From positions 1 through 64,000 of the forward strand of contig CAIYTH010000048.1 of NCBI GenBank assembly GCA_903929135.1: DNA of 64,000 nucleotides, in the 5' to 3' direction. The notes beneath the pieces are model-generated. The model searched no databases. It was not told where the DNA came from and worked only from the letters and a program-made list of their open reading frames with translations. This stretch comes from an uncultured Chlorobiales bacterium (GTDB taxonomy: Bacteria; Bacteroidota; Chlorobiia; Chlorobiales; Chlorobiaceae). Position numbers and translations under genes: made by a program. Shown one piece after another: positions 23,146 to 49,008 of the stretch. How positions within the stretch are numbered: position 1 is the stretch's first letter; every line of letters starts with the position of its first letter.

Positions 23146-24417
23146 ATGTCAAAAAAGCAGAATACAGGTAGACGCAATACCATCATAGTCCTGTCCGGCG
23201 CCTTCATCCTGCTTCTTGCCGCCGTTGCCCTCTGGATGAAGCTTCGTGAAAAACCGGTCGAAGTGACAACCGAAAAGGCGTTCCGCAAAGAGGTGGTCCA
23301 CGTCGTGACGGCCACCGGCAAGATACAGCCGGAACTTGAGGTCGCGATGTCACCCGACGTGTCGGGAGAGATCATCGACCTGCCGATCAAGGAGGGTCAG
23401 CAGGTCAGGGCCGGCGACCTGCTCTTCAGGATACAGCCGGACATTTACGAAAATCAGGTCGAGCAGAGCCGGGCACAGATGAACCTCGCCAAATCCCAGA
23501 GCCTGGATTCCAGGGCGCGGATGCTCAAGGCACAGGACGATTTCCGTAAGGCCGATCTGCTCTACAGGGAAAAACTGATCTCACAGACCGAATGGCTGAC
23601 CTCAAAAACAACTGCGGAATCCGCCAAAGCCGTCTTTGAAGCTTCACGTTACGGCATCGAACAGAACCGCAGCCTGCTCAGCCAGAACGAGGAACGGCTG
23701 AGGAAAACCGTCGTCAGGGCCCCGATGATCGGTACGATCTCTCTGCTCAAGAGCAAGCTTGGAGAGCGCGTGGTCGGCACAGGCCAGTTCCCGGGAACCG
23801 AAGTGCTCAGGATCGCAAACCTCGACAGCATGCAGGTCGAGGTTGAGGTAAACGAGAACGACATCGTCAACGTGCGGACCGGCAACCCGGTGACGGTCAC
23901 GGTCGACGCGTTCGGCGACAGGAAGTTCAACGGCGTCGTGCGTGAAATCTCGAACTCGGCCATCACGAAGGCGGCCAACACCCAGGAGGAGGTTACCAAT
24001 TTCGCGGTCAAGATCAGGGTCCTGAACCATCTGCGCCTGCTCAAGCCGGGCATGAGCGCGACAGCCGACATCCAGACCATTCGCGTACCGGACGCACTCG
24101 TGGTGCCGATCCAGAGCGTGACCATCCGTGACGCCGGCGGCAAGGTCATGAACTCCGGAAAAAAGGACCAGAATGACGACAAGGCGGTACAGGCACCTGT
24201 AACGAGCAAGCGCAGGGAGGAGGGCACCGAAGGTGTCTTCGTGGCCACTGACGGCGTCGTGCGGTTCAGGAAGGTCAGCACCGGCACGACCGACAACACC
24301 CATATCATCGTGCTCAGCGGTCTCAGGGAGGGCGAAACGGTCGTCTCGGGAAGCTTCGGCGCCATCACCCGCGAACTCCGGGACGGAAGCCGGATCAAGC
24401 TGCAGGGGAATCAATGA
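23146..24417 (+). CDS. MacA-like periplasmic efflux adaptor
   Basis: 423 residues. One N-terminal membrane anchor ([19 protein letters not shown]) is followed by the half-lipoyl segment [20 protein letters not shown], an alpha-hairpin (about 110-185) and beta-barrel segments ending [20 protein letters not shown]. This is the MacA/HlyD layout. It links the inner-membrane ABC transporter to TolC. The ATG of the ATPase gene overlaps its end by 4 bp, which indicates coupled expression. Confidence 0.9.
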
Positions 24418-25106
24418 GCGACCGGCCGTTCATCATCGACATCCAGTCGCTCTGCAGGTTCTACACCATGGGCGACCAGACGGTCAAAGCGCTGGACAGC
24501 ATCAACCTGCAGTTCCGGAAAACCGACTATACCGCCATCATGGGCCCGTCGGGAAGCGGAAAGTCGACCCTGATGAACATCCTCGGCTGCCTCGACACGC
24601 CGACCTCCGGTCGTTACGAGCTGAACGGGCAAAACGTTGCCGAAATGGACGACGACGAACTGGCCCGCGTGCGCAACCGGGAGATCGGGTTCGTATTCCA
24701 GACCTTCAACCTCCTGCCGAGGCTCAATTGCCTTAAAAATGTCGAGCTGCCGCTGATCTATGCCGGCATCGACCCCGAAGAGCGCCTCGAACGGGCCCGT
24801 GCCGCACTTGAATCGGTGGGGCTTGCCGACAGGATCGACCACAAGCCGACAGAGCTCTCCGGAGGGCAGATCCAGCGGGTCGCGATCGCCCGGGCCCTGG
24901 TCAACCGCCCCTCGATCATCCTGGCCGACGAACCCACTGGAAACCTCGACACTGCGACCAGCCACGACATCATGGGAATTTTCGGCAAACTTTCGGAAGC
25001 AGGAAATACGATCATCCTGATCACCCACGAAGAGGATATCGCCCGTTTCACTCGCCGCACCATCCGACTGCGCGACGGCAGGATCGAAAGCGATTCGTCG
25101 ACATGA
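24414..25106 (+). CDS. MacB/LolD-type ABC transporter ATPase
   Basis: 230 residues, one ABC ATPase domain. Walker A is [12 protein letters not shown], the Q-loop is [11 protein letters not shown], the signature is [15 protein letters not shown], Walker B is [12 protein letters not shown], and the switch histidine lies in ILITHEE. The EPTGNLD pattern is typical of the MacB/LolD subfamily. In MacB of E. coli this domain is fused to the permease; here it is separate. It overlaps the adaptor and the first permease gene by 4 bp each. Confidence 0.95.
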
Positions 25107-26368
25107 ACGGGAAACTCCAGCATTTCCGTTACGAGACGACCGAAAGCCTGAACATGGCCGTCTACCAGATCAGGTCCAACAAGATCCGCTCATTCCTGAC
25201 GGCGCTGGGCGTCATCATCGGCATCGTCGCCATCACCATGATGGGCACCGCGATCAACGGCATCGACCTCGGTTTCGAAAAGAGCCTTGCCATGATCGGC
25301 TACGACGTCATCTACGTGCAGAAATCCTCGTGGAGTACGATGGGGCAATGGTGGAAGTACCGGAACCGCCCCGACATCAAGACGGACTATGCCGTGCAGA
25401 TCAACCGCACCATCGCAGACACGCCCCGTTCTGAACTGGTCGTCGCCGTACCCCAGATGTCGACCTTCCAGGCTTCTGCGCGCTATCGCGACCGCCTGCT
25501 GCAGCAGGTATTTTCATTGGGCACCAACCAGGACTACCCCCGGACCGCATCGGGAGACCTTTCGGAGGGCCGATTCTTCACCCCGCAGGAGTCTGCTGCC
25601 GGTGACATGGTCTGCGTCGTCGGTGACGATATCGCCACGGGTCTTTTTCCCCATGAACCATCCATCGGCAAGGCGATACGGCTGAAAAACAGCAACATAC
25701 GCGTCATCGGGGTGTTCAGGAAGCAGGGGAAATTCCTCGGGCTCTTCAGCTTCGACAACCAGATCGTCATGCCGCTCGGAGCATTCGAGAAGATCTACGG
25801 CAAAAGCCCCTTCGTGAGTATCAGGATCAAGATCCGCGACCAGAAGAGGAGCCCTCAGGCGAACGAGGAGATCACCGGGCTGATGCGACGGATCAGGAGG
25901 CTCTCCCCCTCGCAGGAGAACGATTTCGCGGTCAACGAGCAGATGGCGTTCAAGAGCCAGCTCGACCCGATCAAGAACGGAATAGCCGTGGCCGGCATCT
26001 TCATCACCGGAATGTCGCTCTTCGTCGGAGCCATCGGCATCATGAACATCACCTTTGTCAGCGTCAAGGAGCGCACCCGCGAGATCGGCCTCCGCAAAGC
26101 CCTCGGTGCGCGTCGGAGAACGATCCTGCTGCAGTTCCTGATCGAATCGGTGATGATCTGCATGATCGGCGGCCTGATCGGTCTCGTCACCTCCGTCTCG
26201 ATCACCTTCGCCATCCGGTTCGTCATGCCGGATTTCCCGGTACGTTTCTCGCCGATGCTGGTCCTGGCCAGCCTCGCCGTGTCGGTCATCACAGGAGTCG
26301 TCTCGGGCCTCGCCCCGGCCGTGATCGCCTCGAAACTCGACCCGGCCACATCACTCAGGTACGAATAG
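25103..26368 (+). CDS. MacB-type ABC permease (first of two)
   Basis: 421 residues. The MacB layout is clear: TM1 after [20 protein letters not shown], a large periplasmic core (about 60-280), then three C-terminal helices containing [20 protein letters not shown] and [20 protein letters not shown], the FtsX motif that contacts the ATPase. It ends [10 protein letters not shown], a standard family terminus. It probably forms a heterodimer with the next permease and exports a substrate through TolC; the substrate is unknown. Confidence 0.92.
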
Positions 26369-26370
26369 CC

Positions 26371-27618
26371 ATGGCGACCATCACCATCCGGGAAACCCTC
26401 TTTCAGGCAGCCATCTCCCTTGCTGCCAACAAGCTGAGGTCGGCGCTGACCACACTCGGCGTCGCGGTCGGCGTTTTTTCGATCATCGCGGTCATGACGG
26501 CACTCGACGCGGTTGAACGCTCCGTGGCCACCGGTCTTTCGAGCCTAGGGGCCAACACGTTCCAGATCCAGAAATACCCTGCCACTGTATTCGGCAGCCG
26601 GCACCAGCAGGACCTTTATGCAAACCGAAAGGACATCAACTGGCAACAGGCCCTGCTGTTCCGGAAGTTCATGGGGGCGAAGGCATCCGGCATCGGCTTC
26701 GTGATCACGAAGCAGGCAAGCCAGGCGCGTTTTGCAAACCGATCGACAAACCCGGACGTCATCATGACCGGAGGGGACGAAAACTTTGCCAAGGCAAACG
26801 GATTCGACCTTTCGGATGGGCGGAACATGAACGCAAACGACATCCAGTATGCGAGCAACATCGCGGTGCTCGGCAGCGAAGTGGCCGTATCGCTGTTCGG
26901 ACTGGGGGAAAACCCCCTGAACCGGCAGATCAAGGTAGACGGGAAGGTCTATACGGTCATCGGGATCTTCAGCAAGAAGGGGGCCGCTTTCGGGCAGAGC
27001 CAGGACAACTTCGTACTCATACCGATCACACGTTACCTCGACCAGGTGAACGAAAAAAGCAGTCTCTCGATCACGGTCGAGGCCCGGTCACAGAAAGAGT
27101 ACCCCGCGACCATCGACCAGGCAATCGGGGCCATGCGGCTTGCAAGAGGCCTTACGGTGAGACAGACGAACGATTTCGAGATAAGGACCAACGAATCCCT
27201 GATCGAATCGTTCAGGGAAATCCAGAACACCATCAGCGTCGGAGCCTTCATCATCAGCTTCATGGCCCTCCTGACCGCCGGGGTGGGCATCATGAACATC
27301 ATGCTGGTCAGCGTCACTGAACGAACCCGGGAGATCGGCATAAGGATGTCGATCGGGGCTCCGCGACAGACAATCCTCAGGCAGTTCCTGCTTGAAGCCC
27401 TGCTGCTGTCGATCGGAGGCGGCTTGGTAGGAATCGCCGCGGGGGCCGGAGCAGGAAACCTCGTCGCCCTCAATTTCAACCTGCCGATGATGTTTCCCTG
27501 GGGCTGGATGTTTGCTGCGATCATCGTCTGCTCGGCAATCGGCATCTCTTTCGGCATCTTCCCTGCATGGAAAGCCGCCAACCTCGACCCGGTTGTGGCC
27601 CTGCGCTCTTCGAAATGA
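26371..27618 (+). CDS. MacB-type ABC permease (second of two)
   Basis: 415 residues with the same architecture as the preceding gene: NKLRSALTTLGVAVGVFSII at TM1, a periplasmic core, GVGIMNIMLVSVTERTREIG and IRMSIGAPRQTILRQFLLEA, and the terminus LDPVVALRSSK. It starts 2 bp after the first permease. The two are diverged copies of one fold, so the transporter is likely a heterodimer. It is the last gene of the cassette. Confidence 0.92.
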   Translation: MATITIRETLFQAAISLAANKLRSALTTLGVAVGVFSIIAVMTALDAVERSVATGLSSLGANTFQIQKYPATVFGSRHQQDLYANRKDINWQQALLFRKFMGAKASGIGFVITKQASQARFANRSTNPDVIMTGGDENFAKANGFDLSDGRNMNANDIQYASNIAVLGSEVAVSLFGLGENPLNRQIKVDGKVYTVIGIFSKKGAAFGQSQDNFVLIPITRYLDQVNEKSSLSITVEARSQKEYPATIDQAIGAMRLARGLTVRQTNDFEIRTNESLIESFREIQNTISVGAFIISFMALLTAGVGIMNIMLVSVTERTREIGIRMSIGAPRQTILRQFLLEALLLSIGGGLVGIAAGAGAGNLVALNFNLPMMFPWGWMFAAIIVCSAIGISFGIFPAWKAANLDPVVALRSSK

Positions 27619-29668: not shown

Positions 29669-30061
29669 ATGCACTACCAGAACGCCGAAGATGTCCTCTC
29701 CCGCTGGATATCCGGAATCTGCAACGGAGCCATCGACGAGGTCGAGACCCTGTACCATGAGAACGCCGTTCTCATTCCGACGTTCTCTCCCCATACCGTG
29801 AATACAACCCAGGGAATACGACAGTATTTCGAACAGCTTGCGACAAGAGACAAGCTGCAGGTCAGGCTTTACGACAAGTCCCTCAAAAAGCAGTGGCTCG
29901 GCGGGACATCCTGGGTGCTCAGCGGGATCTATGCATTCGAATTCGAGGTTGACCAGATGCTGCTTACTTTTCCGTCGAGGTTCACGTTCGCCGTCGACCT
30001 TTCAGGCGAAAAGCCGATCATCCATCACCACTCTTCTCAGGTACCGAGGAACCTGTCGTAA
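29669..30061 (+). CDS. NTF2/SnoaL-like protein
   Basis: 130 residues. The shape is a single cone-like NTF2 fold: helix ADVLSRW-type start (here EDVLSRWISGICNGAIDEVE), LYHENAVLIPTFS, TTQGIRQYFEQLATRD, and the closing strand FTFAVDLSGEKPIIHHHSS. This matches the SnoaL/CaMKII-association group, seen as small isomerases or protein-binding domains. No catalytic residues can be named. It stands alone between the OmpA-like gene and the signalling cassette. Confidence 0.75.
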   Translation: MHYQNAEDVLSRWISGICNGAIDEVETLYHENAVLIPTFSPHTVNTTQGIRQYFEQLATRDKLQVRLYDKSLKKQWLGGTSWVLSGIYAFEFEVDQMLLTFPSRFTFAVDLSGEKPIIHHHSSQVPRNLS

Positions 30062-30367
30062 GACGACCGGAACGGGGGAGGTGGGCCGGCGTGGTTCCCC
30101 TCCCTCGTTCACCCCTCGAGCAACGATGGAGGGTGTTCCGGATCACCAGAGCTGATCTAATTCTTCCGAATACCCAGTCTCAACAGCACGATTGACGTAT
30201 AAATGCACGAATATCGGATATACAGGAAAAAGAGATGCTGGCGAATTTGCGCCAAAAAAGCTATATATTAGTTGTATTTGCGTCCGGACTCACAAATAGA
30301 TTCGGCGAATATATACGACCATTGAGCAGGTGGTTTTTTCGATGATCGTGGAAGCCTCCCTGCAATC
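30062..30367 (+). promoter_or_regulatory. Upstream region of the AfsA-like cassette
   Basis: 306 bp without a gene and clearly AT-richer than the flanks in its second half. It holds a short hairpin (TGGCG, loop AATTTG, CGCCA near 30239-30254) and a TATATT box at 30264-30269 that could be a -10 element. No -35 box at good spacing was found. This is where regulation of the cassette should act. Confidence 0.4.
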
Positions 30368-31339
30368 ATGACGAAAAGTGTTTCATGGATACGGGACAGG
30401 CTTTTCCTCCATAAGCAAACTGTAGCAATGCAAAAAACGACAAATGGCCAGAAAAGTAATGGTAACGATCAGAATAACAGCTCTGGCAACCCCTCCTATA
30501 TATTGCTGTTAGAAGAAGACGGGCGTCCCCTTTCTGCTGATAAGTTGCAGGTCGTCACCGCCCACTCGGCAGAAGAGGCCGAAAGGTTCTCTTTGCTCCT
30601 TGGCAATGCATGCCGGTTGTATCTTTCCCCGGAGTACCGTCAGTCTCATCCTGATATTTCTGAACAAACAGAAAACCTGACTTCTGCGTTCCGGGACAGG
30701 AAAGCGATGCTCGACACCGATGCCGCCGTTCCCCTGTTGCGAAAACTGCCGCTCGATCTTGACAGCCTTCTCAACAGTGCGATCGCGGTGAATGACGGGG
30801 ATCCTCAGCCCGCACCCATAGACAGGAGTATCGTGCACAAGCACCGGGATGCGAATGTGTTGATTTCAGAACCGCTTTGCTGTGGGGATCTGCGTTACTA
30901 CAACATGTTTCTGGAAACTGACGAACTGAAGTTCGACCACACCTCCGCACACGTACAGGGCATGCACATGCTCGAAGCGTTGAGACAGGTAGGCATTGCA
31001 ACCGGACATCTTCAGGGACTGCCGGCCGGCGGCCAGATTGCCTTGCTGAACTATGACACGAACTTCTACAGTTTCATCGAGCGAAATTCTCCTATTATCA
31101 TAAGGGCGTACAGCAGTTTTACAGCAGATGAGACAAGTGAAGACAAGGAGATTCTTGTGTTCACCCAGGTTATCCAATGGGGAAAAGTCTGTGCTGATGC
31201 CATGCTGAAAGGATTTGCCTTTATGAGCAGAGAACGATGCGAACAGAAAGAGGCGCAGCTTGCAAGAATAGCCTCCAGGCACAAAACGATGTTCGAATCG
31301 AAGATCAAGAAGTTTCTTGAAATGGAGAACAAAGGGTAA
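30368..31339 (+). CDS. AfsA-type hotdog-domain protein, candidate signal synthase
   Basis: 323 residues. The C-terminal half (about 150-290) matches the AfsA hotdog domain, the family of the Streptomyces gamma-butyrolactone synthases AfsA and ScbA: IVHKHRDANVLISEP at 155-169, then FDHTSAHVQGMHMLEALRQV at 189-208 with Glu203 and Arg206 in the E-A-x-RQ-x-G motif. AfsA joins a beta-ketoacyl-ACP to a glycerol-type acceptor. AfsA has two such repeats; here I see one, behind an N-terminal region (about 43-145) I do not recognise. The stop codon overlaps the next start (TAATG). The ATG at 30368 has no strong ribosome-binding site; 30428 is an alternative. The assigned chemistry is inference from the fold. 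Confidence 0.75.
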   Translation: MTKSVSWIRDRLFLHKQTVAMQKTTNGQKSNGNDQNNSSGNPSYILLLEEDGRPLSADKLQVVTAHSAEEAERFSLLLGNACRLYLSPEYRQSHPDISEQTENLTSAFRDRKAMLDTDAAVPLLRKLPLDLDSLLNSAIAVNDGDPQPAPIDRSIVHKHRDANVLISEPLCCGDLRYYNMFLETDELKFDHTSAHVQGMHMLEALRQVGIATGHLQGLPAGGQIALLNYDTNFYSFIERNSPIIIRAYSSFTADETSEDKEILVFTQVIQWGKVCADAMLKGFAFMSRERCEQKEAQLARIASRHKTMFESKIKKFLEMENKG

Positions 31340-32649
31340 TGCGAGTAGCAGTCATAGGCAGCGGTGTATCAGGAATTGCCTCGGCGTTCTACCTCAGGCA
31401 ACGCAATATTGAAGTCGATCTGTATGAAGCCGAGGAGCGTATCGGCGGCCGCATCGGCAGCGAACCGATGCTCGGCCGCCGCGTCGACTTCGGCGGCAAG
31501 AATATCGGCAAGCATTACCGCCAGTTCCGTGAGTTCGCAGGGGCATGCGGAAATCCGGATTTTGAATATTTCGGCCTTAACACCTCTCAGCTTGTCAAGG
31601 GTCACGTCCTGAAGATCAGCAAGGAAGGCGCGCCGCTCTCCAACACCATCAAGCTTCTCATGCTCTGCGGTTTCGACGGGGTGCGCAAGCTCTATCCCCT
31701 CATCAGGGCCGTTCAGAAAGACCATCTTCAGGGGGTGCTCGGCAGCGACTTTTTCAGAACCGTCTCAGACCGTTACGACCACCTGACGCTTGCCGAATAT
31801 CTGAAGGAGCGCTGCGTCAATCACGTCGTTCGGCCGATCACGATCAGAATGAACGGTGCCGAGCCGGACGAATGCTATCCGGGAAATTTCGGTTCCAACC
31901 TCGCACTCGTGCTCGACAGCTACGAGCAGCTCAAGTACGGAATGCATGGGCTGCTTGATGCATTCCGGAACATGGAGGGCCCCGGATCGCTCAGAATCCT
32001 CGGAAAGCATCAGGTGACTTCGATATCGAACGAACCCGGTGGCACCTTGACAATCACCTGCGAGCACGATGGCGTTTCATCGACGGCACGTTACGACCGT
32101 GTCATTTCTGCCATTCCGGCACGTCAACTGGCAACCCTGCTTGACCATTCCCTGCCTTCCGCAGCAGCACTGCTGCGCCGGATACGCTATTACCCGGTTG
32201 CAGTCGCCATTGTGAAATACCGGGATCGGGTATTCGAGCAGGACCGTCGGGCCATGATGTTCGACAGCACCGGAGCCCTGAGCAACGCCGGCGCTTACGG
32301 CATCAACGACCTTGACCTCGTGCGATATACCTTCAGCGGCAGAGTGTCCCGGTCTGCAATCTCCGCCCACTCCACCCCTGAAGCGGTCATCACTCTTGGA
32401 GAACAGATCGCCGCTCCTTATATTTCAATAAAGAATAATCCCAGGCAGGAGTTCGCCTATCGTTATCTTGCGGAGGGTTTGTGCGCCTACTCCCCCCGGC
32501 ATCACCTGCTCCTTGATCAGCTCGATCGGGAGATAGCGTATTTCAACGGATTTGGCGCGACTGGCGACTATCGTCGTGGAGCCTCAATTGAAGCCTGTTT
32601 CAGGGCGGCGGGTGAGTGCGTCGAAAATGTCATTGGAGATGCCTATTGA
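31339..32649 (+). CDS. FAD-dependent amine oxidase/protoporphyrinogen oxidase-like protein
   Basis: 436 residues. The dinucleotide-binding motif VAVIGSGVSGIASAFYLRQR is at the N-terminus, followed by an acidic strand end (VDLYEAEERIGGRI) and the R-G-G-R region, as in the HemY/amine-oxidase superfamily. The C-terminal FAD segment is degenerate: YFNGFGATGDYRRGASIEAC stands where family members have the GD motif. It starts inside the stop codon of the AfsA-like gene and its own stop overlaps the kinase start. The likely role is tailoring of a small molecule in the same pathway, which is an inference. Its substrate cannot be read from the sequence. Confidence 0.8.
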   Translation: MRVAVIGSGVSGIASAFYLRQRNIEVDLYEAEERIGGRIGSEPMLGRRVDFGGKNIGKHYRQFREFAGACGNPDFEYFGLNTSQLVKGHVLKISKEGAPLSNTIKLLMLCGFDGVRKLYPLIRAVQKDHLQGVLGSDFFRTVSDRYDHLTLAEYLKERCVNHVVRPITIRMNGAEPDECYPGNFGSNLALVLDSYEQLKYGMHGLLDAFRNMEGPGSLRILGKHQVTSISNEPGGTLTITCEHDGVSSTARYDRVISAIPARQLATLLDHSLPSAAALLRRIRYYPVAVAIVKYRDRVFEQDRRAMMFDSTGALSNAGAYGINDLDLVRYTFSGRVSRSAISAHSTPEAVITLGEQIAAPYISIKNNPRQEFAYRYLAEGLCAYSPRHHLLLDQLDREIAYFNGFGATGDYRRGASIEACFRAAGECVENVIGDAY

Positions 32650-34757
32650 AACTCCTGTCACACATACGGGATTTCATCAAGGACGGAACGCTTGTTTCCC
32701 GTTCGAACACGCGCGCCGCGGCATTCCTCGGTGCGCCTGCTCATTTTTTCTTCTATTTCATATTCAAGTACGGCTTTAATCTGAATGAGAGCTTTGCGAT
32801 CAGGATGATCGCAACCTTGCTCTGCCTGAGCATGCTACTCAAGCCGAAATGGCCGGAGAAGCTCCTGCCCTACTTCCCGTTCTACTGGCATTTCATGCTG
32901 ATTTTCGTCCTGCCGTTCATTTTCACGTACAACCTGCTCATCAACAATTTCCACGAGCTCTGGCTCTATTGGGAAATATTCATGGTGTTCGTGCTGATCG
33001 TGTTTTCGCCCCACTGGCTGATGTACCTGCTCGACCTTGTCATCGGCATTGCCGGAGCGATCGTCTACTTTATGCTCAGCTCGCCGCATGCCGTTCTCAC
33101 CCCGACGTTCAACATCCCGCTCTGGAGCCTGGTCGTCGGCTTTTCCATCGTGGTGGGTTACATGTTCAGCTTCAGCAACTGGCAGACCATGAAAGCCGAG
33201 GAACAGCGAAAGTCCGAGGAAAAAACCCTGGCTCTCGAAGCCCTGGCAGGCGGCATTGCTCATGAAATGCGCAATCCGCTTTCCCAGATACGCCACAATC
33301 TCGATGAGATCCTGCAGGAACTTCCCTACCTCCGTAACGAAGAGTTCATCAAAGCGACCGAACCCATCCGGCAACGTGTTGCCCAGGCACACACGGCCGT
33401 CAACCGGGGCCTGCACATCATCGACATGACGCTCGAAAATTTCAAGAGTTTCGATCTTGCCGGTGAGGATTTCAGCTCGCTTTCCGCCGCAGCCGCCACA
33501 CGCAAGGCGATCGACGAATTCGGTTATGCCACCGATGATGAACGCCGGAAAGTGCATCTCCAGGCAAGCGAGGACTTTATCTTCCGGGGTGACGAGAACA
33601 GCTATGTCTTCGTGCTGTACAACCTGCTGCTCAACGCGCTTCATGTGCTCAAATCGACCCCTCTCGGTCAGATATCCGTCAGGCTGCAGCCCGGCGAAAA
33701 CGTCAACAGGGTATTTGTCAAGGACAACGGGCCGGGCATCCCGCCAGAGATCCTCAGCAGGATTTTCGATCCGTTCTTCACCTCAGGGAAAAAAGGCGGA
33801 ACAGGTCTTGGCCTGGCATTCTGCAAACGGGTCATGCGCTCTTACGGCGGCGATATCGTCTGCAACTCGATACCGGGAAAGTCCACGGAATTCGTACTGA
33901 CATTCCCCGTGCTTGAAAAATCGCAGATCGAGGACTACGAGAAAAAACTGTACAGCGAATACCAGAGCGTCTTTGCCGGCAAACGGCTGTTGCTTGCAGG
34001 GAACAACCAGGATGACCTCCAGGTTATCCGCAAGCTTCTTGAACCGCTGCGTGTCGTTACCGAAGAGGCTCTGGACGGAGCCAGTGCCCTGAACATGATC
34101 GAGCTGAAACGATACGACATCCTTCTTGCAGACTACGACCTTCCGGTGCTGGATGCCTCATCGCTCTCCCTCAGGCTTACCGAGCAGGGAAAAGAGCTTC
34201 CGATCGTTGCATATACCTCCAGGAAGCATCTTGTCATCGGCAAGGGGCTTGCTGAAAAATCCGGCATCGATGCCAGGATATTCATGCCCCCGGCGCTCTC
34301 CGAACTGCTGCATGTACTGAAGACCTCCCTTGAAACAACCCGGGAGGCGCTCAAGGAGTCCCTGGCAGGAAAAACGGTGCTCGTCGTCGACGATCTGGAC
34401 ATCAATCGCCGGGTGATCAAATCGATGCTCAAGAAGCTCGATGTGACGATTCTTGAGGCATCGAACGGCCAGGAGGCTCTTGACACCCTGGATGCGAACC
34501 ATTGCGACCTTCTGGTCATGGATATGAAGATGCCGGTGCTCGACGGGTTCGAGGCAACCCGGCGTATCAGGTCGGGAAACAACAGCTACCGGGATATTCC
34601 GATCCTCGGCCTGAGCGGAAACCTTGACAACAAGTCATTCCAGATGGCCAAATTGAGCGGCATGAACGAATGCCTCATCAAACCGGTCAAAATCAAGCTC
34701 TTTCTCCAGAAGGTCTCCTCCATGCTGAAAACCGAACGCCCCGTCCCGGCTGAATAA
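32646..34757 (+). CDS. CqsS-like six-TM hybrid sensor histidine kinase
   Basis: 703 residues from the TTG at 32646, chosen because GGAG lies 7 bp upstream and TTGA overlaps the previous stop; a GTG at 32616 is less likely. Six membrane helices (about 27-42, 50-66, 80-99, 108-122, 126-144, 157-176) precede the phospho-acceptor box GGIAHEMRNPLSQ (His206), an ATPase domain with Asn330, DNGPGIPPE and GTGLGL, a receiver-like domain lacking the acidic pair (about 446-555), and a full receiver (577-692) with Asp582/583, Asp626 and Lys679. The layout and many blocks (LPFIFTYNLLINNF, TEFVLTFP, and an AGNNQ start of the first receiver) strongly recall Vibrio CqsS, the CAI-1 autoinducer receptor. It likely senses a lipid-like signal in the membrane. 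Confidence 0.85.
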   Translation: MKLLSHIRDFIKDGTLVSRSNTRAAAFLGAPAHFFFYFIFKYGFNLNESFAIRMIATLLCLSMLLKPKWPEKLLPYFPFYWHFMLIFVLPFIFTYNLLINNFHELWLYWEIFMVFVLIVFSPHWLMYLLDLVIGIAGAIVYFMLSSPHAVLTPTFNIPLWSLVVGFSIVVGYMFSFSNWQTMKAEEQRKSEEKTLALEALAGGIAHEMRNPLSQIRHNLDEILQELPYLRNEEFIKATEPIRQRVAQAHTAVNRGLHIIDMTLENFKSFDLAGEDFSSLSAAAATRKAIDEFGYATDDERRKVHLQASEDFIFRGDENSYVFVLYNLLLNALHVLKSTPLGQISVRLQPGENVNRVFVKDNGPGIPPEILSRIFDPFFTSGKKGGTGLGLAFCKRVMRSYGGDIVCNSIPGKSTEFVLTFPVLEKSQIEDYEKKLYSEYQSVFAGKRLLLAGNNQDDLQVIRKLLEPLRVVTEEALDGASALNMIELKRYDILLADYDLPVLDASSLSLRLTEQGKELPIVAYTSRKHLVIGKGLAEKSGIDARIFMPPALSELLHVLKTSLETTREALKESLAGKTVLVVDDLDINRRVIKSMLKKLDVTILEASNGQEALDTLDANHCDLLVMDMKMPVLDGFEATRRIRSGNNSYRDIPILGLSGNLDNKSFQMAKLSGMNECLIKPVKIKLFLQKVSSMLKTERPVPAE

Positions 34758-34841
34758 GCCATCCTCCTTTGCAACGTTGGAAGCGATCCGCAAGGAGCGC
34801 AGCAACAAACCTTCCCTCACTCTCCCCTAACGGGCGATACC

Positions 34842-37508
34842 ATGTACCGAAACATCTCGGACTACGGACTGATCGGAAACATGCGTTCGGCTGCGCTGGT
34901 TTCCAGAGACGGCTCGATTGACTACTGCTCCCTGCCATGGCTCGACTCCCCGACGATTTTTGCGGCGCTGCTCGACGACGAGCTCGGCGGGTTCTTCGCC
35001 ATCAAACCCGTAGGAGAGTTCACCTCAAGCAGGGAGTACGTTGCGGAGACCAATATCCTATCCTGCACCTTCAGGACCGAGACCGGAAGTGTGCAGCTCA
35101 TCGACTTCATGCCCGTCGGAAACACGATCAAGCCCGAACGTCCGCCCGGAATACATCGCTGCCTCAGGGCCATCGAAGGACGCATGGCGCTCGAGTTGAC
35201 CTTCGCCCCGCGACCGGACTACGGGCGAATGAAGCCGGTGATCATGAAAGAGAAACAGGGTTTCACGGCAATGGCCGGAGATTTCGGACTGTACCTGCTC
35301 TTCACCGGTCCTGAATGCCGGGAAACGGGCATCGGAAGCGACACTCTCCGGCTTGAGTTCGAACTCGACGCCGGAGAGGCTGCCCATGTAGATCTTCTTA
35401 CGGATCCGCCACTGGAGACGCTCGCCTGTCCGTTCGAATCGACCAGAACCTTCTGGGATGAGTGGACACACTTCTGCATCGGCGAACGATGCGTCTGGAT
35501 GGGTGAATTCACCCCGCTCGTCCGACGCTCGCTACTCGCCCTCAAGCTGCTGACCATCCAGTCGACGGGAGCCATCGCCGCCGCGCCCACGACTTCGCTG
35601 CCGGAATCCGTCGGAGGGACACGCAACTGGGATTACCGTTTCACCTGGATTCGCGATGCATCGTTCACCCTCAAGGCGTTCTTCTCGCTCGGCCACGTCA
35701 GCGAAGCCGACAGCTTCATCCACTGGCTGCACACCACCTACCAGAGGCATGGAAGCCGTGGCCTGCAGATCTTGTACTCCATCCACGGCGAACACGCATT
35801 CGAAGAAGTTTCCCTGACGCACCTCAAGGGATACCACGCATCGATACCAGTCAGGATCGGGAACAACGCATTCCGGCAGAACCAGTGGGACATCTACGGC
35901 GAGGTCATGGATGCGGCCCTCAGGCTTTCGGACAACGCGGGCAGGATCGATGATAAGTTGTGGCCCTTTTTCATGGATATCTGCGAAATGGCCTGTGAAA
36001 ACTGGCGAAAACCGGATGACGGCATCTGGGAGGTGCGTAACGGCCCTCACCACTTCGTCTACTCCAAGGTGATGTGCTGGGTAGCACTCGACAGAGGTAT
36101 CTCCATTGCACGGCGCTTCGGATTCAACGCACCGCTCGAACGGTGGTCGAAGGAACGCAACGCCATCAGGGCCGAGATACTCGAACGGGGCTTCAGCCTC
36201 GATCGAAACAGCTTCGTCCAGCGCTTTGGCTCCGATCAGCTCGACGCGAGCCTGCTGCTGCTCCCGCTGGTCAATTTCCTGCCGGTTTCCGACAGCCGGG
36301 TACAAGGCACGATCGATGCCTGCATGGCTGGCCTGGTAAAAAACGGTTTCGTCAGAAGGTACCTTGCCGAAGACGGTCTTGAGGGAGAGGAGGGCGGTTT
36401 CGTGCTGTGCAATTTCTGGCTGATCGAGTGCCTCGCCCTTTCCGGCAGGACCGAGGAAGCTGAGAAAGTGCTCGTACAGACCATGAAAGCCGCAAACGAC
36501 CTCGGCCTGTTTGCAGAGGAGTATGATATGATGCGGGGCGAAATGCTCGGCAATTTTCCCCAGGCCTTCAGCCATATCGGGTATATCAACGCCGTTTCGG
36601 CCCTGCTGGCAGGCAAGGCGCCTGCCGAAACGAAGGATACCGAGCTTTCGCTGATGCAGTGGCTGCAGCGGCTGATACCGCTCCAGATCACGCTCAACAC
36701 CGATCCGGAAGCAACCGGTCAGACGCATGATGCGGCAGGGATCGACACCCTGCTGAAAAAGAGTCTGGGACGCCTGCAGGGTGCGTTTTTCGACACCAGG
36801 CAGGGACGTGTCGACTATGGCGCCATGAAGCGATCGGAAAGCTTCGGGCAGTACCGGAGCCTTGCTGCCGCATTGCGCCGTTTCGAGCTCGGCACCCTTG
36901 CCTCCGATGGGCAGAAGAAAGCTTTCTGGATCAACATCTACAATATCCTGATCATCCACGGCGTCATCGCCCTCGACATCCGCCGTTCGGTACTCGAAAT
37001 CGTCAATTTCTTCGGCAGGATCGGTTATGAGATCGGAGGTGCCTTCTTCTCGCCGGACGACATCGAACACGGCATCCTGCGCAAAAACCGCCCCCACCCC
37101 GCATTCCCCCTGCGTCCTTTCAGTACATCCGATCTGCGGCTCCGCTTCAGCGTGCAGGAGTTCGATCCCCGGATCCATTTCGCACTGGTCTGTGCATCGA
37201 ACTCCTGTCCGCCGATAGAGTTTTATGACCCGGAGAGGATAGACCAGCAGCTCGATCTCGCTGCCAGGAGCTTCATCAACCGACGGGGACTGGAGTTGGA
37301 CATCGAAAAGCAGGAGATCCGTCTGTCGAGGATCTTTCAGTGGTATGCCGACGATTTCGGAAAATCGCAGGAAGAGCTGCTTGGCTTCGTCATGCAGTTC
37401 GCCGGGGATGAGGTGCGCACCGCCATTCAGGGAATTGGCGTCAAAAATCTGCAGATCCTCTATCTGCCCTACAACTGGGATCTGAACCGTTCGCTCGATC
37501 AGGAGTGA
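34842..37508 (+). CDS. Glycoside hydrolase family 15 protein fused to a DUF547 domain
   Basis: 888 residues. Residues 1 to about 215 form the N-terminal beta-domain (SDYGLIGNMRSAALVSRDGS, then IDYCSLPWLDSPTIFAALLD), and about 220-600 form the alpha/alpha barrel of GH15 glucoamylase/trehalase-like enzymes, with GGTRNWDYRFTWIRDASFTL and GEEGGFVLCNFWLIECL carrying the likely catalytic carboxylate. From about 640 to 880 lies a DUF547 domain, with KKAFWINIYNILIIHGVIA and FALVCASNSCPPIEFYD. DUF547 proteins are usually separate secreted proteins. The GH15 part has no signal peptide, so the fusion is probably cytoplasmic and acts on trehalose, glycogen-derived glucans or a related sugar (inference). 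Confidence 0.88.
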   Translation: MYRNISDYGLIGNMRSAALVSRDGSIDYCSLPWLDSPTIFAALLDDELGGFFAIKPVGEFTSSREYVAETNILSCTFRTETGSVQLIDFMPVGNTIKPERPPGIHRCLRAIEGRMALELTFAPRPDYGRMKPVIMKEKQGFTAMAGDFGLYLLFTGPECRETGIGSDTLRLEFELDAGEAAHVDLLTDPPLETLACPFESTRTFWDEWTHFCIGERCVWMGEFTPLVRRSLLALKLLTIQSTGAIAAAPTTSLPESVGGTRNWDYRFTWIRDASFTLKAFFSLGHVSEADSFIHWLHTTYQRHGSRGLQILYSIHGEHAFEEVSLTHLKGYHASIPVRIGNNAFRQNQWDIYGEVMDAALRLSDNAGRIDDKLWPFFMDICEMACENWRKPDDGIWEVRNGPHHFVYSKVMCWVALDRGISIARRFGFNAPLERWSKERNAIRAEILERGFSLDRNSFVQRFGSDQLDASLLLLPLVNFLPVSDSRVQGTIDACMAGLVKNGFVRRYLAEDGLEGEEGGFVLCNFWLIECLALSGRTEEAEKVLVQTMKAANDLGLFAEEYDMMRGEMLGNFPQAFSHIGYINAVSALLAGKAPAETKDTELSLMQWLQRLIPLQITLNTDPEATGQTHDAAGIDTLLKKSLGRLQGAFFDTRQGRVDYGAMKRSESFGQYRSLAAALRRFELGTLASDGQKKAFWINIYNILIIHGVIALDIRRSVLEIVNFFGRIGYEIGGAFFSPDDIEHGILRKNRPHPAFPLRPFSTSDLRLRFSVQEFDPRIHFALVCASNSCPPIEFYDPERIDQQLDLAARSFINRRGLELDIEKQEIRLSRIFQWYADDFGKSQEELLGFVMQFAGDEVRTAIQGIGVKNLQILYLPYNWDLNRSLDQE

Positions 37509-47442: not shown

Positions 47443-47527
47443 GCCCGAATGGCGGAACTGGTAGACGCACTCGTTTCAGGGACGAGCGCCGAGAGGTGTA
47501 GGAGTTCGAATCTCCTTTCGGGCACCA
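47443..47527 (+). tRNA. tRNA-Leu, anticodon CAG
   Basis: 85 nt. The acceptor GCCCGAA pairs with TTCGGGC, with discriminator A and an encoded CCA end. The anticodon stem CTCGT/ACGAG encloses the loop TTCAGGG, so the anticodon is CAG (reads CUG). The long variable arm and GGAGTTCGAATCTCC T-arm fit class II tRNA-Leu. Confidence 0.96.
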
Positions 47528-48572: not shown

Positions 48573-49008
48573 TGCTGAAACCGCAAGTGTGCAGTCGCTG
48601 TGTGGCATAGTCCATGCAGAGGAAAGTCCGAACTTCACAGGGCAGGGTGCCGGTCGAGAACCTCTGGTTCAAGCCCGGGGGCAGCGGTGCAAGCCGTCTG
48701 CCACAGAGAGTGCAACAGAAAGCGAACCGCCACGGGAAACCGCGGTAAGGGTGAAAAGGCGGTGTAAGAGACCACCAGACATTCCAGTGATGGGATGTGC
48801 TATGAAAACCTCCCCGAAGCAAGGCCAAATAAGAACGCTCTTCCCCGTCGGGAATAAGAGTTGCCCGCTCAATTCAAAAGGGTATCGCTCTGCTTGCAGA
48901 GCAGTGCCCTCGAGAGAGCTTTCGGGTCGGCCGCATTAGATAAATGGCTGCAGCTTCGCCACTTGCTGGCGATTCACAGAATTCGGCTTACAGCTTCGGT
49001 TTCAGCTT
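48573..49008 (+). ncRNA. rnpB: RNase P RNA
   Basis: The catalytic RNA that trims the 5' ends of tRNAs. Conserved blocks are in order: GAGGAAAGTCC (P4 5' side, about 48619), AGGGTGAAAAGGCGG, GTAAGAGACCACC, GAAGCAAGGCCAAATAAGA, TTAGATAAATGGCTGC, and ACAGAATTCGGCTTAC (P4 3' side). The ends pair as helix P1: GCTGAAACCG at 48574-48583 with CGGTTTCAGC at 48997-49006. This fixes the limits to within a few bases. A TATATT -10 box at 48556-48561 is correctly placed for a start near 48570. A T-rich run follows the 3' end. Confidence 0.95.

Follow-up and report, generated by a model that had tools for sequence, protein, structure and literature searches.

Quorum sensing by alpha-hydroxyketones is described in two systems, CqsA/CqsS of Vibrio and LqsA/LqsS of Legionella. 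In CqsA/CqsS, a six-transmembrane (TM) hybrid kinase is encoded beside a synthase, and its sensor is followed by a kinase core, an unmatched or degenerate middle stretch and a C-terminal receiver. Homologs of cqsA and cqsS have been published for Chlorobium and Prosthecochloris (PMC5289986), a survey found the cholera autoinducer-1 (CAI-1) system alone in green sulfur genomes (PMC10158934), and the available parts of both reports name cqsA/cqsS only. Here, we analyze a stretch of 64,000 nucleotides (the window; contig CAIYTH010000048.1, an uncultured Chlorobiales bacterium) in which a three-gene operon joins an AfsA-like synthase and a flavin enzyme to a kinase that can be aligned with Vibrio CqsS and shares the layout above. 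To our knowledge, AfsA-type synthases, which serve Streptomyces hormones, and CqsS-type kinases, which serve Gram-negative quorum sensing, have been known only apart. Sequence comparisons suggest that the operon is probably a self-contained unit, a putative self-made signal with its CqsS-like receptor, and thus a variant of CqsA/CqsS-type quorum sensing. Its features, all on the plus strand, are as follows.

30368-34757, +, three-gene operon (AfsA-like, flavin enzyme, kinase), co-directional with head-to-tail overlaps
30428..31339, +, AfsA-like synthase gene (Pfam AfsA; ortholog starts; longest frame from ATG 30368)
30833..31216, +, AfsA hotdog domain with VHK, FDH..H.QG and EALRQ (PF03756 match)
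31339..32649, +, flavin adenine dinucleotide-dependent enzyme of the amine-oxidase superfamily, 436 amino acids (PF01593, 85 bits)
32646..34757, +, CqsS-like hybrid sensor kinase, 703 amino acids, TTG start (HisKA, HATPase_c and Response_reg; alignment with Vibrio CqsS)
32679..33185, +, six-TM sensor domain, residues 12-180 (AlphaFold2 model, predicted local distance difference test (pLDDT) score 80; sensor tree)
32961..32972, +, W106 to W109 in TM4, equivalent to CqsS W104 and S107 in V. cholerae numbering (alignment columns)
33219..33920, +, kinase core with H206 box and ATPase (domain matches, motif reading)
33981..34340, +, degenerate receiver REC1 (LLLAGNN replaces the acidic pair)
34371..34730, +, complete receiver REC2 (Response_reg at 588-700 of the 713-residue frame)

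The operon is conserved as a unit. Both gene overlaps described in a first-pass annotation of this DNA are borne out by the coordinates: at the TAATG junction the AfsA stop codon TAA (31337-31339) runs into the flavin gene's ATG (from 31339), and at the TTGA junction the kinase TTG (32646) lies within the last flavin codons, next to the stop TGA (32647-32649). This TTG is most likely the kinase start, and many orthologous kinases begin at an equivalent overlap. The start of the first gene, previously placed at 30368, is more likely the ATG at 30428: the called starts of three orthologs (L022, L023 and L025) align with the methionine there, so the AfsA-like protein probably has 303 rather than 323 residues. 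Among 61 related genomes AfsA is present in 14, and the flavin enzyme (E 1e-40 or better) is found in the identical 14/61. In a sample of 394 genomes from the phylum, AfsA occurs in 27, every one of them in the window's family. These 27 genomes carry 28 AfsA copies, followed by the flavin gene in 28/28 and by the kinase in 27/28, the 28th copy (G328) being ended by its contig before the kinase; in G004 most of the kinase is lost at a contig end. Gene order is thus not due to chance, and the linkage that the annotation had read from the window alone holds among relatives. One genome (G018) has two full tandem triads and a third kinase, and another (G013) has a triad and a second kinase. A scan of named genomes returned 18 loci titled Chlorobiaceae, Chlorobium, Chlorobaculum, Pelodictyon, Chlorobiales or Chlorobiota, including Chlorobium ferrooxidans DSM 13031; six of their kinases entered the trees described below, the others being duplicates of the G-numbered genomes or cut off.

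The first enzyme is an AfsA-family hotdog protein, as had been proposed from its motifs. Pfam AfsA (PF03756) matches residues 156-283 of the 323-residue frame with 112.7 bits against a cut-off of 24, VHK and EALRQ fall inside the match, and a profile search finds gene 1 to be the genome's sole AfsA match. Residues H157, K158, E203, A204, R206 and Q207 are unchanged across 20 AfsA sequences. An AlphaFold2 model (pLDDT 79.8; low confidence at residues 1-39) has a single hotdog at approximately 170-285 after an N-terminal alpha/beta part, and a Foldseek search of the PDB places hotdog thioesterases and FabZ dehydratases at the top (E from 2.2e-5). In Streptomyces, AfsA contains two repeats and its receptor is a TetR-like repressor; the window's protein differs in its single modeled hotdog, which follows a different N-terminal half, and in its pairing with a membrane kinase as putative receptor. 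A search for AfsA relatives on plasmids gave no match at E 0.001. In the flavin enzyme, the N-terminal GxGxxG and the C-terminal GDYRRGAS are invariant or nearly so across 13 sequences. Among its NCBIfam matches listed (25 of 26) none passes its cut-off, and the top score is that of protoporphyrinogen oxidase (72 bits, cut-off 517).

The kinase has the parts that the first-pass annotation recognized, in the order of CqsS: six predicted TM-length helices (19-43, 50-68, 74-99, 104-120, 124-145 and the start of 157-204), the GGIAHEMRNPL box (residue 202 of 703) and two receivers, the first degenerate and the second full. The acidic-pair site of REC1 differs among orthologs, and its mean identity (40.7%) is the lowest among the kinase parts measured. 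CqsS of Vibrio campbellii (690 amino acids) has the same layout, with a kinase, a gap unmatched by Pfam and a receiver at 574-686. The window's kinase therefore resembles the CqsS type in its alignable six-TM sensor and in the order of its kinase core and C-terminal receiver. It lacks a CqsA gene beside it and the Ser at position 107, where it has Trp109, and a search for CqsA in the window's genome gave no match at E 1e-80. No solved structure matches the sensor model in Foldseek with an E value of 0.001 or lower (adenylyl cyclase 8, at rank 2, has E 2.3).

Within the window's genus the operon occupies a chromosomal slot, entered from the left through MacB-type and OmpA-like genes and then a SnoaL-like gene. 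The genes that mark it are these.

29669..30061, +, SnoaL/CaMKII_AD-like gene, left slot marker (present beside the AfsA, CqsA and methyltransferase versions)
34842..37508, +, glycoside hydrolase 15 (GH15)-trehalase/DUF547 gene, weaker right marker (neighbor survey)

The SnoaL-like gene, which is probably outside the signaling system, stands beside AfsA in 10/11 other same-genus loci fetched (the eleventh starts at a contig start), and MacB, OmpA and SnoaL genes lie on the left in 7/7 loci with CqsA or a methyltransferase. On the right, the GH15 gene is present in 7/13 other AfsA loci. These neighbor surveys covered kinase matches of at least 150 bits (slot survey) or at least 100 bits (27-genome survey) and MacB matches of at least 50%. 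The stretches fetched from a second genus (2 + 13 loci) contain neither a SnoaL nor an OmpA match, so its triad seems to be located elsewhere. Frames resembling a membrane-fusion protein and a MacB-type ABC transporter (named by eye) fill window positions 23146-27618. The MacB-type gene (26371-27618) adjoins the slot in 15/18 other same-genus loci fetched; the transporter is possibly an exporter, or a mere neighbor.

The slot holds different synthases in different genomes. Close relatives of the sensor (at least 46% identity) occur in 21/61 genomes (23/61 with distant ones), and all 21 have an adjoining synthase: AfsA with the flavin enzyme in 14, CqsA in 4 (G001, G010, G015 and G020) and an S-adenosylmethionine-dependent methyltransferase in 3 (G009, G017 and G019), these last seven in the window's genus. 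All four slot CqsA proteins score above the cut-off of the autoinducer-synthase model NF005526 (428; the two scanned reach 576 and 597 bits). The published green sulfur cqsA/cqsS genes come from the same bacterial family with a related kinase, and CqsA sits at this very slot in 4/61 genomes. It is a pyridoxal phosphate enzyme where the window has a hotdog protein and a flavoenzyme, and at the slot it is divergent from the kinase, whereas the genes of the AfsA operon are co-directional. The methyltransferase (identified by Pfam in G009 and G022, by 60% identity in G017 and G019) is found in 5/61 genomes at E 1e-20, in four beside a CqsS-like kinase; the fifth protein, in G060, is 31% identical. 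By arrangement, and as far as the available part of the source describes it, this version resembles PhcB/PhcS of Ralstonia, in which a methyltransferase and a sensor kinase serve methyl 3-hydroxy fatty acid signals; the window's operon differs in lacking a methyltransferase. CqsA and AfsA are not mutually exclusive, because 3/14 AfsA genomes (G007, G022 and G028) have CqsA outside the slot. Such off-slot CqsA amounts to seven genes in five genomes, of which six adjoin a more distant kinase and the seventh lies at a contig start.

Further observations concern these synthases. The G017 methyltransferase gene is split across two frames (L081:8300-9308), with an open kinase frame downstream. In four genomes (L112:8944-10344, L113:6140-7534, L114:5527-6978 and L115:8105-9502) a protein that fuses a hotdog-like part to an LCM-type methyltransferase is encoded directly upstream of a CqsS-type kinase and looks like a further synthase kind; two of the four proteins were scanned, with a YiiD_C match below its cut-off. 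On a plasmid of Paraburkholderia caribensis (L103:4783-8424), an enzyme resembling beta-ketoacyl-acyl carrier protein synthase III (KAS III) lies directly upstream of a CqsS-type kinase, possibly another synthase-receptor pair.

One position of the ligand pocket differs between CqsA-linked and AfsA-linked kinases. In CqsS, two residues of TM helix 4, W104 and S107, tell a hydroxyl from an amino group at C3 of CAI-1 (review, PMC5007282). F175 of V. harveyi CqsS corresponds to V. cholerae C170 (PMC3285556), and since CqsS of V. campbellii (L118) has F175, we equate its W109 and S112 with V. cholerae W104 and S107. The W104 equivalent (W106 in the window) is Trp in 49/49 aligned kinases. The S107 equivalent is Ser in 14/14 CqsA-linked kinases (4 slot, 6 off-slot, 3 Vibrio and 1 Cupriavidus), Trp in 20/20 AfsA-linked kinases and in 27/27 of a second, overlapping set, Trp in 4/4 methyltransferase-linked kinases, Cys or Ala in 4/4 linked to the hotdog-methyltransferase fusion and Ala in the single kinase linked to the KAS III-like enzyme. 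This pattern bears on the proposal that the kinase is an ordinary CqsS that senses the CAI-1-like molecules of neighbors, and that AfsA and the flavin enzyme merely precede it now that cqsA has been lost. The survey cited above (PMC10158934) reads green sulfur cqsS without cqsA as synthase loss, and in the sensor tree CqsA-linked slot sensors fall within the spread of AfsA-linked ones. Against it stand the consistent replacement of Ser by Trp, an operon order retained in every AfsA copy but the truncated one and the presence of both enzymes in the same genomes; we consider it very improbable. Synthase-less paralogs adjoin a triad or methyltransferase pair at L020:13957-16092, L023:10496-12652 and L078:1590-3704. 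They have Ser at the S107 position, yet their genomes show no CqsA match, and it is possible that they are eavesdroppers.

We built separate sensor-domain and kinase-core trees for 48 kinases, and again for the 31 close ones without the 17 distant kinases; G004 (incomplete kinase) and G016 (N terminus called too short) stood outside both sets. The four methyltransferase-linked sensors form a single clade (support 100/100). Their kinase cores are dispersed: those of G017 and G019 join the AfsA-linked window and G007 kinases (100/95), G009 lies near the slot CqsA kinases (weak support) and G022 groups with a G028 kinase (95/83). Uniting the methyltransferase-linked cores costs 182 log-likelihood units (P = 1e-5, approximately unbiased test), and placing the G017 and G019 sensors with the window and G007 sensors costs 97. 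Identities agree, as the G017 sensor is 69% identical to that of methyltransferase-linked G022 and 50% to that of AfsA-linked G007, the corresponding core values are 49% and 76%, and the switch falls near residues 180-210. From the trees and this joint in identity it follows that, in the window's kinase clade, synthase and sensor were swapped together while the kinase was retained. Our reading is that the joint swap arose via recombination, with the sensors sharing common descent; convergence of the sensors is less likely. The CqsA-linked slot sensors form one clade in both trees, among AfsA-linked ones, so the slot CqsA sensor seems to have been altered in place. Across 25 of the 27 triads (two with incomplete kinases being omitted), AfsA distance tracks sensor distance beyond the kinase core (partial r 0.53), and core distance beyond the sensor less so (0.22).

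These exchanges also bear on an alternative in which the lipid or pigment made by AfsA and the flavin enzyme has another use, and the kinase senses some other cue, for example a membrane or redox state, and controls the operon. The weak NCBIfam matches of the flavoenzyme, which besides protoporphyrinogen oxidase include HpnE and carotenoid desaturases, are to pigment and membrane-lipid enzymes, and kinases encoded with enzymes are common. However, a CqsA above its cut-off takes the same place beside an orthologous kinase in four genomes, sensor and synthase vary together in the methyltransferase version, and the sensor is CqsS-like with an altered head-group position. We therefore regard this alternative as unlikely.

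We favor a self-made signal sensed by its own receptor, because the gene set is conserved and its members occur together, the sensor resembles that of CqsS, other synthases replace AfsA at the slot and sensors are inherited together with the methyltransferase. The last two also support the suggestion of the first-pass annotation that the operon makes and senses its own lipid-like signal, the signal itself being an inference. The operon's product is most likely a fatty-acid-derived signal. In the scheme we propose, the AfsA-like hotdog enzyme would condense or modify a beta-ketoacyl chain derived from acyl-ACP (a thioester substrate being expected from the family), and the flavoenzyme would oxidize or desaturate the product to a lipophilic signal. 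Once released, this signal could diffuse and bind within the six TM helices of the kinase, as CAI-1 does in CqsS, shifting the balance of kinase and phosphatase activity, and output would pass via REC2 to a separate Hpt phosphotransfer protein. Secretion of the AfsA product, its role as the kinase ligand, the chemistry of both enzymes and the output path are the inferred parts of this scheme. The genome has six Hpt matches, one within a 134-residue frame on the window's contig at 98349. Elsewhere in it (contig C33, L111:5003-9236), near an Acyl_transf_3 gene, another and more distant CqsS-type kinase is encoded, which includes an Hpt domain and has Thr as its S107 equivalent; that genome shows no CqsA match.

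Several results weigh against this interpretation or limit it. The ScbA/BarX model NF041195 gives 37.4 bits against a cut-off of 200 and covers residues 146-255 only; together with the single hotdog, this low score suggests that known butyrolactone chemistry may not apply. It also tells against a chemical version of the same interpretation, in which a true A-factor-type gamma-butyrolactone or butenolide would be made from dihydroxyacetone phosphate (DHAP) and a beta-ketoacyl chain and sensed by the kinase instead of an ArpA-type repressor. The AfsA hotdog shared with Streptomyces AfsA, ScbA and MmfL and its EALRQ motif favor that version, as does the precedent of MmfL, which is accompanied by the accessory enzymes MmfH and MmfP in the route proposed for related Streptomyces signals from DHAP and a beta-ketoacyl thioester (PMC6604932). 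The operon has no phosphatase gene, and we hold this version to be possible but doubtful; because the ScbA/BarX cut-off is not reached, we class the system as a CqsA/CqsS-type variant and not as a butyrolactone system. For the whole kinase, the best NCBIfam model is LuxN (NF041945), with 271.9 bits against a cut-off of 1550, and there is no CqsS model among the matches listed (25 of 144 families). We rejected LuxN identity: the score is far below the cut-off, and the best stretch starts past the sensor, from residue 205 of the 713-residue frame, and spans the kinase and receiver region. The sensor itself can be aligned with CqsS of Vibrio and with kinases linked to CqsA, as the first-pass annotation had expected.

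Other reservations concern co-inheritance and the pocket position. Module swap is established for the methyltransferase version, not for AfsA, and the GH15 gene flanks only 1/7 loci with CqsA or a methyltransferase (L078). The permutation test behind the distance correlation ignores relatedness, the flavin enzyme correlates with the sensor to the same partial degree (0.53), and divergence is much faster in AfsA than in the sensor (mean -ln identity 0.77 vs. 0.44), so that strict lock-step between AfsA and sensor is not suggested. The Ser/Trp pattern reflects few independent changes, with three pairs on starred branches and a sign-test median P of 0.5 (Cupriavidus omitted). Moreover, 3/3 slot paralogs without their own synthase have Ser, and three further kinases for which no synthase was identified have Trp, Thr and Ser.

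A broader model would place one receptor chassis beneath interchangeable synthase and sensor cassettes, namely AfsA with the flavoenzyme, CqsA, the PhcB-like methyltransferase and, elsewhere, the hotdog-methyltransferase fusion. The AfsA cassette would make an undescribed class of autoinducer, the Ser/Trp switch at the S107 position would help to set the class that is read and Ser-bearing paralogs may eavesdrop on ketone signals. We find the considerations for and against this model evenly balanced.

The first-pass annotation knew of no such pair in green sulfur bacteria. For AfsA this stands, as a literature search that covered few subscription papers found none, in green sulfur bacteria or elsewhere, that pairs AfsA with a CqsS-type kinase. 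It does not hold for CqsA/CqsS, already in print for Chlorobium in the available parts of both reports (PMC5289986, PMC10158934), so the novelty is limited to the AfsA pairing. As a natural series, the slot sets orthologous receptor kinases next to three kinds of synthase, and with one kind the sensors have been exchanged at a clear joint; how a signal and its receptor change together with the circuit unbroken is therefore testable. The operon also alters how 'cqsS' genes that lack a synthase are to be read in green sulfur bacteria, as some may work with another signal.

A dyad, TGGCGAATTTGCGCCA, precedes the AfsA gene at 30239-30254 and is partly retained in L020 and L023 (by eye). We rejected it as a conserved operator, as it occurs exactly once in the genome and with one mismatch at three other places, compared with one for the reversed control. 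Sigma-70-like promoters number 3 in 29900-34900, against a shuffled mean of 2.9. Elsewhere, the window contains a tRNA-Leu gene (47443-47527) and a class A RNase P RNA (48578-49006; Rfam RF00010, 206 bits).

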